Origin: Maribellus sp. YY47
Lineage (GTDB): Bacteria > Bacteroidota > Bacteroidia > Bacteroidales > Prolixibacteraceae
Direction: 5' to 3'
Assembly: GCF_023111095.1 (NCBI RefSeq)
Contig: NZ_JALGYW010000001.1
Coordinates: forward strand, 186,001 to 250,000
DNA length: 64,000 nt
The first letter of the stretch is position 1; every line of letters starts with the position of its first letter. The notes beneath the pieces were generated by a model that was not told the DNA's origin, searched no databases, and saw only the letters and a program-made list of their open reading frames with translations. This document shows positions 24,549 to 28,093 of the stretch, one piece after another. The translations under genes were made by a program, and so were the position numbers.

Positions 24549-25889
24549 ATGAATAATACATTTTTAATACTGAAACAAGAGTATCTGAAAAGGGTCAAAA
24601 AGAAATCGTTTATCATTCTGACCATTTTGATGCCGCTTTTGATTGCCGGTGTTTATGCGCTGGTCATTTATTTTTCGATAAAAGACGACACGCAGGAACG
24701 CACCATTGCCGTTTACGATGAGTCGACACTGTTTCTTGGAGAATTCGAAGACCAGGGAGCTACCCAATACCACTTTGTTCCGAAAGAAGAGTATGCCGAA
24801 CTAAAAGGCAAACTAAAAGGCAGCGGCTATTATGCAGTGCTTTACATTCCCGGAAATATTTACACCAACAACCAGGCGCAGCTGACTTCCGAGAAACAGT
24901 TGCCTTTGGAACTGACCGAGCAGATCGAGCGCAAACTAAGCCGCTTTATCGAGAACGATAAACGCCAGAAGGTAATCGACGAATCGGGGATCCCCGATCT
25001 TGACGAACGCTTAAACCAAGCCCGGACTTCAGTGCGGCTGAATACGCTGAAACTGTCGGAGTCGGGCGAAACCAAAAAGAGTTCCTCGGTAGTGGCTTTT
25101 ATTGCCAGTTATGCAATGGGAATCATCATCTACTTTTTTGTGTTTATGTACGGCGCCATGGTGATGCGCAGCGTGATGGAAGAAAAGAAAAGCCGCATCA
25201 TCGAGGTAATTATTTCGTCGGTAAAACCTTCGCAGCTGATGGCCGGAAAAATCATCGGTACGGCGCTGGTGGGTTTAACCCAGGTGGCTATTTGGGTAGC
25301 GCTGGGTGGTATCGGACTCTTTGTGGTGCAAGGACTATTTGCCCCTGAAACGGCTCAGCAAATGGGGCAAAGCCTGATGGAAGCGCAGGGAGGTATGAAC
25401 CCCGCCATGGCACAGGCCGCCGAACCCAATAAGGTGAACGAGATACTGGAAATGATCGGGAACCTGAATATTCCGCTTATCCTCTTTGCCTTTGTATTTT
25501 ATTTTTTGGCCGGTTACCTGTTGTACAGCTCGCTGCTGGGAGCCGTTGGCGCTGCAGTTGATAACGACGAAGATTCGCAGCAAATGGTATTTCCGGTTAC
25601 TTTTCCGCTGATACTTTCGATCATGTTGTTATTCCCGATTGCCAAAAACCCGGAAGGACCGCTGGCGTTCTGGACATCGATTATTCCGTTTACCTCGCCC
25701 GTTGCCATGATGGCCCGTATTCCCTACGGCTTACCCACGTGGGAAATTCTGCTTTCGATGGCCCTGCTGGTATTGGCAACTGTGGGAGCGATTTACGCCG
25801 CTGCCAAAATTTACCGGGTAGGTTTACTGATGTACGGGAAAAAGGTGAATTTGAAAGAGCTCGTGAAGTGGTTGCGGTATAAAAATTAA
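24549..25889 (+). CDS. ABC-2 type permease (NatB-like)
   Basis: 446 residues. One N-terminal helix (~20-42), a large extracytoplasmic domain (~45-175), then five to six helices in the C-terminal half with MRSVMEEKKSRIIEVIISSVKPSQLMAGKIIGTALVGLTQ, the conserved cytoplasmic loop of ABC-2 permeases of the NatB type. Ends in a Lys/Arg-rich tail. Membrane partner of the preceding ATPase. Confidence 0.93.
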   Translation: MNNTFLILKQEYLKRVKKKSFIILTILMPLLIAGVYALVIYFSIKDDTQERTIAVYDESTLFLGEFEDQGATQYHFVPKEEYAELKGKLKGSGYYAVLYIPGNIYTNNQAQLTSEKQLPLELTEQIERKLSRFIENDKRQKVIDESGIPDLDERLNQARTSVRLNTLKLSESGETKKSSSVVAFIASYAMGIIIYFFVFMYGAMVMRSVMEEKKSRIIEVIISSVKPSQLMAGKIIGTALVGLTQVAIWVALGGIGLFVVQGLFAPETAQQMGQSLMEAQGGMNPAMAQAAEPNKVNEILEMIGNLNIPLILFAFVFYFLAGYLLYSSLLGAVGAAVDNDEDSQQMVFPVTFPLILSIMLLFPIAKNPEGPLAFWTSIIPFTSPVAMMARIPYGLPTWEILLSMALLVLATVGAIYAAAKIYRVGLLMYGKKVNLKELVKWLRYKN

Positions 25890-25964
25890 GAAAACAAAAA
25901 AAATAAGGATTATCCTTGGTTGGGTTATTTAGATTTAATAAAAATTACCTATCTTGCTTCCATT

Positions 25965-26033
25965 ATGATGATATCGATGTACCATACTTATATGTGTTGC
26001 TGTTCGGAAATCTCCGGAAAGGTATTGTCGTAG
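25965..26033 (+). CDS. Poly-cysteine leader peptide of cysK
   Basis: A 22-residue frame, MMISMYHTYM then Cys11-Cys12-Cys13 (TGT TGC TGT, 25995-26003) then SEISGKVLS and TAG. Three consecutive cysteine codons by chance in a 22-codon frame exactly between a promoter-like element and a terminator before a cysteine synthase gene are very unlikely. The exact start (ATG at 25965, 25968, 25977 or 25992) is uncertain. Proposed role: the ribosome measures charged tRNA-Cys while translating these codons. Codons 17-20 (TCC GGA AAG G) also contain the antiterminator strand. Confidence 0.8.
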   Translation: MMISMYHTYMCCCSEISGKVLS

Positions 26034-26097
26034 TATAAATTGAACTTAGTCGAGTCACGATAACAAGGCCTTTCCGAGTAACGGGAAGGCCTTTTTT
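26015..26097 (+). promoter_or_regulatory. Cysteine-responsive transcription attenuator of cysK
   Basis: Terminator: AAGGCCTTTCC (26065-26075) / GGGAAGGCCTT (26083-26093), 11 bp with one U-G pair, 7-nt loop, six U. Antiterminator: CGGAAAGG (26015-26022, inside the leader ORF) is perfectly complementary to CCTTTCCG (26069-26076), the terminator's 5' arm. A ribosome stalled on the Cys codons would leave 26018-26033 free and favour the antiterminator; one that reaches the stop at 26031-26033 would cover the antiterminator strand and let the terminator form. A weak CGGA/TCCG hairpin (26005-26016) could act as an extra competitor. The mechanism is inferred; the sequence elements are seen. Confidence 0.75.
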
Positions 26098-26223
26098 ATT
26101 GACATTTATTTAGAAGAAACATATAACTCAAAAAATAGAACAAGATGAAACAGGTCCCGTCGTTCAAAAGACAAAGGGAAAGGTGGCATCTTAATCCGTA
26201 AAGGAGAAATTAAAATTAACAAG

Positions 26224-27135
<912 letters not shown>

Positions 27136-27140
27136 TTTTG

Positions 27141-27172
27141 ATAGCCGGTTAGTTTTAGCCGGCTATTTTTTT
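27141..27172 (+). terminator. Terminator of cysK
   Basis: ATAGCCGG (27141-27148) / CCGGCTAT (27159-27166), 10-nt loop, then a run of T. Confidence 0.88.
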
Positions 27173-27781: not shown

Positions 27782-28093
27782 ATGAAGAAAGTATTGTTTT
27801 TATTGCTGACCGTTGGTTTGTTTGCCTGTGGTTCGGCCGAAAAGAAAACGGAAACTAAGGCGACAGCGCAGGCCGAAATAACTGAAGTTTCGCTGAGTAT
27901 CGGGGGAATGACCTGCGAGCATTGTGTGATGTCGGTTGAAAAAGGTATCAACAGTTTGGAAGGAATCGAAGCGGTGAAAGTAACACTAGCAGATTCTACT
28001 GCTGTTGTCAAATACAATGCCTCGGTGCTGCAGCTCGACGATATTAAAGAAGCCGTAAAAAAGCGTGGCTACGAAGTGAAATCTGCCGAATAG
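27782..28093 (+). CDS. Lipoprotein with heavy-metal-associated (HMA) domain
   Basis: 103 residues: signal peptide with lipobox ending LFAC (Cys16), a short Lys/Thr/Glu linker (~17-33), then a complete HMA fold with the metal-binding GGMTCEHC motif (Cys45, Cys48) and the usual C-terminal VKKRGYEV. It would carry Cu(I) or another soft metal outside the cytoplasm, unlike the cytoplasmic CopZ chaperones. 37 bp after the DUF302 gene, probably one operon. No metal ATPase is nearby. Confidence 0.92.
   Translation: MKKVLFLLLTVGLFACGSAEKKTETKATAQAEITEVSLSIGGMTCEHCVMSVEKGINSLEGIEAVKVTLADSTAVVKYNASVLQLDDIKEAVKKRGYEVKSAE

Follow-up and report, generated by a model that had tools for sequence, protein, structure and literature searches.

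Does a short reading frame with three tandem Cys codons, followed by an intrinsic terminator and then by the cysteine synthase gene cysK, form a transcription attenuator that senses cysteine? This question was raised by the initial annotation of the window (the whole 64,000-nucleotide stretch of DNA that was analysed), in which attenuation of the trp/his type was proposed for cysteine. The trp and his attenuators of Proteobacteria are built from protector, antiterminator and terminator hairpins, and their regulatory codons lie beside an arm of the protector. According to a 2010 survey, leader peptides outside Proteobacteria and Actinobacteria had not been known before its Firmicutes cases, with the exception of ermC (PMC2965389). 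For the phylum of the window, a transcript map of Flavobacterium psychrophilum has given strong clues that leader-peptide attenuation operates upstream of amino-acid biosynthesis operons (PMC9723704), and short ORFs reminiscent of it were noted in the long 5' UTRs of Bacteroides thetaiotaomicron (PMC7366714); the parts of the two main texts considered here present no cysteine case.

Results

Architecture of the leader region

The features of the locus were collected in Table 1. The 22-codon frame, the Cys triplet, the terminator 31 nt behind the stop codon and the succeeding cysK were all reproduced from the sequence at the positions initially annotated, and so was the exact complementarity between CGGAAAGG in the frame and the 5' arm of the terminator. 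The Cys run occupied leader codons 11-13, and nine codons separated its end from the stop. In the terminator stem, 26065-26076 paired with 26082-26093, and the 3' strand of the antiterminator was located inside the terminator 5' arm. By folding, the terminator alone reached -20 kcal/mol (z -5.9), and the leader together with the terminator gave a z of -4.0. Nine terminator-like sites passed the filter on the two strands of the window, and only the one at 26065 had a triple-Cys short ORF at the right distance; together with the Cys enrichment in the family described below, this argues that the combination of leader and terminator did not arise by chance.

Table 1. Positions of the leader, its helices and the neighbouring elements in the window
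Feature	Position	Strand	Partner or detail	Basis
-7-like promoter element TATCTTGC	25950-25957	+	near Bacteroidetes TAnnTTTG	sequence, genus comparison
P0 5' arm (start-codon region)	25962-25975	+	partner 26021-26034	minimum-energy fold, swap test
Leader peptide ORF ATGATGATATCGATGTACCATACTTATATGTGTTGCTGTTCGGAAATCTCCGGAAAGGTATTGTCGTAG	25965-26033	+	encodes MMISMYHTYMCCCSEISGKVLS, 22 codons and stop	sequence, family comparison
Three tandem Cys codons (TGT TGC TGT), putative sensor	25995-26003	+		sequence, residue control, conservation
P1 hairpin	26003-26018	+	26003-26008 with 26013-26018; overlaps 5' half of antiterminator strand	fold, shuffles
CGGAAAGG	26015-26022	+	complement CCTTTCCG, 26069-26076	sequence
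Antiterminator 5' strand CGGAAAGGT	26015-26023	+	partner 26068-26076 (GCCTTTCCG)	folds, covariation
P0 3' arm	26021-26034	+	overlaps 3' end of antiterminator strand and stop codon (26031-26033)	
Intrinsic terminator AAGGCCTTTCCG-AGTAA-CGGGAAGGCCTT and T run	26065-26099	+		fold, covariation
cysK, cysteine synthase A, 303 aa	26224-27135	+		NCBIfam TIGR01139, 406.6 bits (cut-off 350.95)
Terminator-like hairpin and T run 3' of cysK	27140-27172	+		fold, -17.5 kcal/mol, z -5.2

Upstream, an ABC permease-like gene ended at 25889, about 175 nt 5' of the terminator. The start of cysK followed about 125 nt beyond the terminator, and this interval was variable among relatives. The terminator-like hairpin behind cysK suggests that the unit probably consists of the leader and cysK alone, and co-transcription of a CopZ-like gene (27782-28093) with cysK was dropped for the same reason. 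No Cys leader was found in the upstream region of the genome's own cysE.

At 26100-26223 the window carried some 80-90 extra nt between terminator and cysK, which were also found at L003, L004, L015 and L060 and were absent from most leaders of the genus. A small ORF in the same interval, at 26145-26201, was discarded, its frame being seemingly not conserved in a by-eye comparison (L001, L003, L004).

The sequence TAnnTTG was located 5-9 nt 5' of the leader ATG in 24 of the 30 leaders of the window's genus. As the -7 consensus of the phylum is TAnnTTTG (PMC7366714), the transcription start is probably no more than a few bases away from the leader ATG, which would make the leader near-leaderless; 5' UTRs shorter than 10 nt account for only about 3.7% in Bacteroides (PMC7366714).

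Conservation in Prolixibacteraceae

The CysK of the window shared 98% identity with the CysK of Maribellus luteus, a member of Prolixibacteraceae, and CysK matches at E ≤ 1e-80 were obtained in 129 of 140 family genomes. The orthologue set (at least 71% identity) started from 98 listed family rows; after removal of the two that were truncated by contig ends (G007, G102), 96 upstream regions remained. A terminator-like hairpin preceded cysK in 86 of these, a terminator plus a short ORF with tandem Cys codons (at least two) in 79, and a terminator plus at least three Cys codons in a row in 65. Tandem Cys codons with a terminator were present in 30/31 regions of the window's genus, 16/20 of g2, 3/4 each of g11, g16 and g23, and 24/24 across nine other genera, and in 0/8 of g3 and 0/1 of g22. 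The arrangement was also kept where the upstream gene, judged by ORF starts, was not ABC permease-like (L169, L182, L189).

To evaluate the residue specificity of the run, we took the 84 cysK regions of the family in which a terminator lies no further than 260 nt away. A triple-Cys run was found at the leader site in 65 of them. The other residues gave 0-2 triple runs each, apart from Leu (23) and Met (16), whose counts we attribute to the overlapping TTG frame of TGTTGT and to an ATG run before the Cys codons, respectively. Outside the Cys run the leader peptide sequence was highly variable.

A tandem-Cys leader with terminator was missing from 17 of the 96 regions, including all eight of genus g3; two of the 17 (L036, L075) had separated Cys codons when read by eye. 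At L055, L057 and L063 the leader and the antiterminator were lost and the terminator stood directly behind the ABC permease-like gene. Judged by sequence, these loci are natural losses of the sensor, and the retention of the terminator in them indicates that the hairpin can act as an ordinary 3' terminator. The initial annotation had named the lack of a conserved Cys-rich frame or terminator upstream of orthologous cysK genes as evidence that would count against it; in the comparison both were kept in 79 of 96 orthologues. The element is thus real but not universal, since it is absent from the whole of g3 (8/8) and reduced to the terminator at three loci.

Fourteen upstream regions of more distant CysK paralogues were also compared. 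In three (L101, L107, L108) a run of at least three Cys codons closed a short ORF or lay close to its end, and of these only L108 had a terminator-like site, a weak one.

Covariation of the antiterminator with the terminator

Covariation was tested on an alignment of 56 sequences. The antiterminator cells were paired in 88.6%, compared with 85.3% in shuffles and 73.1% in the best slid version. Changes on both sides were found in 24 cells, distributed over 3 of the 9 pairs; neither this cell count nor the covariation score was equalled in any of 500 shuffles. The number of doubly changed pairs (3/9) was not above that of shuffles, 342 of 500 being as high, and the signal therefore resides in the cell count and in the swap test. 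In the latter, which ignores phylogeny, antiterminator duplexes of own strands averaged -14.39 kcal/mol, compared with -12.07 for swapped and -7.67 for shuffled strands (n = 56 at 80% redundancy; 0/2000), the shuffles here, as for P0, P1, the phylum residue runs and the distant antiterminators, keeping base content and not dinucleotides. The own-versus-swapped result was the same with all 78 loci. In the terminator, 96.9% of cells were paired and 7 of 11 pairs had changed on both sides in the 56 sequences. The compensatory changes that the initial annotation suggested looking for are thus present in the family, both within the terminator and between it and the antiterminator.

An extended antiterminator (26025-26031 with 26057-26063), suggested by single-sequence folds, was rejected, as swaps were as good in 100/2000 at 80% redundancy and in 164/2000 with all 78 loci.

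Two further helices were supported as means across loci. The stretch that contains P1, running from the Cys codons to the antiterminator, had a mean minimum free energy of -6.67 compared with -4.64 after shuffling, and none of 100 rounds was as low (78 loci); at L091 and L094 it folded worse than the shuffles. P0, the pairing of the start region with the 3' side of the antiterminator strand, had been missed by the initial annotation. Its own duplexes reached -12.45 kcal/mol versus -9.27 for swapped ones (n = 50 at 80% redundancy; 0/2000, phylogeny ignored), and -14.45 versus -10.96 in 15 leaders of the window's genus (0/2000). P0 was weak at L049, L094, L095 and L097.

Occurrence of Cys leaders beyond the family

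A covariance model of the family leaders scored 85 bits at the window and 37 bits at the next-best place in the same genome. In 393 genomes of the order it gave matches in 198 at E ≤ 0.01, of which 29 loci (L122-L150) were examined. Twelve of the 29 were Cys leaders with terminators: three before family cysK, eight before ORFs of 254-280 aa and one, at L134, before an ORF that we take to be OsmC-like. For five of the eight ORFs the best NCBIfam family was serine acetyltransferase (the cysE model), below the equivalog cut-off. The figure of 198/393 was rejected as a count of cysteine attenuators, because the other 17 of the 29 examined loci were other terminators or leaders, including Asn and Ile/Val ones.

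Among cysE genes of the order (the best 30 of 124 genomes with CysE), 6 were preceded by a leader with terminator and 24 were not; L265 was missed by the terminator filter in this survey, and the same place passed in two other analyses. The phylum set, limited to those of 198 genomes that had a CysK match at E ≤ 1e-100, comprised 33 places in 32 genomes, the window's excluded. Leaders with at least three Cys residues in a row were found in 10 of these 33 upstream regions; the corresponding counts were 0-3 for the other residues and 0.03 after base-content shuffling. In 23 of the 33 cysK units no three-Cys leader was found, with or without a terminator. Four of the ten Cys-run leaders also had a terminator. 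In the other six, the Cys codons were mostly near the leader end, and the leader stop was 54-74 nt before cysE.

In the named loci, many of which coincide with family loci and are hence not independent of them, a tandem-Cys leader with terminator preceded cysK in 20 of the 65 examined (of 80), and it preceded cysE in 5 of the 33 of these 65 whose upstream cysE region was also inspected. Leaders were observed in Maribellus luteus, Draconibacterium sediminis and Sunxiuqinia elliptica, and L180 and L201 were labelled as Ignavibacteria relatives. The antiterminator was better than 95% of base-content shuffles at 15 of the 17 distinct distant places tested, the exceptions being L127 and L180. L290 and L291 had CC-x-CC instead of CCC. 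The layout is thus shared, with a patchy distribution, by cysE or cysK genes of some other Bacteroidales and of other classes, and the genes behind the Cys leaders examined were, with few exceptions, cysK or cysE-like.

At ten loci (L232, L234, L236, L239, L251, L256, L177, L190, L196, L218) Cys-rich leader ends without a convincing terminator were observed 50-75 nt before cysE, and at L196 a CTATCTCTTAA stretch was nearly complementary to the ribosome-binding region of cysE. Such terminator-less leaders ending in Cys could be a translational version of the system.

Leaders for other amino acids were met on the way. In the window's genome, the leaders MKFNISIINILLGILLLTRQK and MRLTINILVVLVLILGISERG, each ending in a stop and read by eye, were found with terminators before leuA and ilvD (L114 and L120, on C54 and C34). 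In other Bacteroidales, Asn-rich leader frames, also read by eye, with terminators preceded genes at L128, L138, L140, L143, L144 and L149, and the genes behind L138 and L140 were confirmed as asnA, aspartate--ammonia ligase. These may be asparagine attenuators; a search of the open-licence literature showed none of this kind. At L137 (G227, about 1486-1641), a leader MNQTFFHTNLCWCWNCIKIYMERFVLQFFR, ending in a stop, with a terminator preceded an ORF 31% identical to CysK; its Cys and Trp codons alternated, and it was left out of the Cys-leader count.

Discussion

The comparison of sequences suggests that the element upstream of cysK is, very probably, a ribosome-mediated transcription attenuator that senses the charging of tRNA-Cys and controls cysK. 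When cysteine is ample, the leading ribosome would clear the Cys codons, reach the stop at 26031-26033 and cover CGGAAAGG, so that the terminator would form and RNA polymerase would stop before cysK. A shortage of Cys-tRNA would halt the ribosome on 25995-26003, where it would cover the 5' arm of P1 and leave CGGAAAGGT free to pair with GCCTTTCCG; the terminator would then not form and cysK would be transcribed. Both the stalling and this direction of response are inferred from the logic of known systems. If the leader is untranslated, or the ribosome has left, P0 and P1 would close the leader, hold the antiterminator strand and favour termination. A ribosome stalled on the Cys codons leaves the 5' arm of P0 bare, and P0 could therefore also compete with antitermination.

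The trp/his-type reading given in the initial annotation is supported by the conservation in 79 of 96 orthologues and by the covariation. Comparison supports each component: the ORF with its Cys run, the terminator and the antiterminator pairing that excludes it, and the helices P1 and P0. The features of such attenuators are found here as consecutive codons for the end product (three Cys codons in 65/96 and two in 79/96, with terminator), an intrinsic terminator between leader and cysK, an antiterminator that excludes the terminator and whose 5' strand follows the regulatory codons (covariation and swaps), and, on average, a protector hairpin (P1) whose 5' arm the stalled ribosome could reach, to which P0 adds a second clasp.

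The hairpin might instead serve to end transcription of the ABC transporter operon that lies upstream, the Cys frame being coincidental or unrelated. The ABC permease-like gene does end only about 175 nt before the terminator, and at L055, L057 and L063 the terminator is located right behind that gene with no leader. However, the tandem-Cys ORF accompanies the terminator in 79 of 96 regions, the terminator 5' arm covaries with a strand inside this ORF, and the arrangement also occurs with other upstream genes and before cysE, which makes this explanation very unlikely; terminating the upstream operon may be a second job of the hairpin. Control of translation, in which the stalled ribosome frees the ribosome-binding site of cysK, is equally hard to sustain, even though the polycysteine leaders of mycobacteria have been reported as translational attenuators (PMC13236596, PMC9031893) and leaders with a Cys run close to their end and no terminator occur among relatives in other classes. 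Here a strong terminator stands between leader and cysK, its 5' arm covaries with the leader, and the start of cysK lies about 125 nt further on at a distance that varies in relatives. It is hardly credible that the signal is not Cys-tRNA but another one, such as a metal or oxidation, sensed by the nascent Cys-rich peptide. Copper sensing by a nascent exported protein reportedly concerns Rhodobacter. Such translational sensing has been published (PMC9973294), and a CopZ-like gene is located in the window; the hairpin behind cysK, however, probably places CopZ outside the unit, the genes behind the examined Cys leaders are nearly always cysK or cysE-like, and the leader peptide varies widely outside the Cys run.

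Beyond the attenuator of cysK, we give about even chances to a wider reading, in which a widespread but patchy Cys-run leader system for cysK or cysE-cysK exists in Bacteroidota and related classes, with one sensor and different outputs. The output would be either a covarying intrinsic terminator, as in Prolixibacteraceae and some other Bacteroidales and classes, or terminator-free and probably translational. In the terminator form the start-codon region would serve as an anti-antiterminator, so that an untranslated or finished leader would be reset to the off state.

The initial annotation knew of no transcriptional version of a cysteine leader in Bacteroidota. For this phylum the statement stands within the open-licence literature, where no cysteine attenuator was found among the matches listed; a transcriptional one has been predicted for cysS of Rhodobacterales (PMC8632094). 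This uORFC-8-2 motif, the nearest transcriptional case described in the sources considered, is a predicted attenuator with a tandem-Cys short ORF, stems and an intrinsic terminator, as here (PMC8632094). The likeness is one of description, and the motif differs in belonging to Alphaproteobacteria, in its target, cysteinyl-tRNA synthetase instead of cysK, and in having two Cys codons inside a stem (PMC8632094). In mycobacteria and other actinobacteria, polycysteine leader ORFs (Canestrari 2020, cited in PMC13236596, PMC9031893 and PMC9094748) likewise place runs of Cys codons before cysteine genes; they are described as leaderless, and the leader of the window is possibly near-leaderless. Actinobacterial Cys leaders were predicted with runs near the stop codon and no terminator (PMC1262725), in contrast to the internal run and following terminator of the window. 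Membership in an Rfam leader family (release 15) was rejected, no hit scoring near the gathering cut-off (Phe_leader, 22.6 bits of 55). With the trp and his attenuators the element shares the layout of protector, antiterminator and terminator, and it differs in sensing cysteine and in the additional helix between start region and antiterminator. The logic of attenuation itself is already known; as far as we have seen, there is no description of this amino acid, these genes and this phylum in combination, of a P0 clasp, or of two outputs within one phylum.

If this interpretation is true, Bacteroidota would have a defined switch of transcription that responds to cysteine and is open to testing in relatives that are named and culturable. 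It would also provide a case backed by covariation for a phylum in which attenuation appears in the sources considered only as clues from transcript maps (PMC9723704, PMC7366714). Related bacteria that carry the same codon-run sensor with and without a terminator would, moreover, open the evolution of the output to study.
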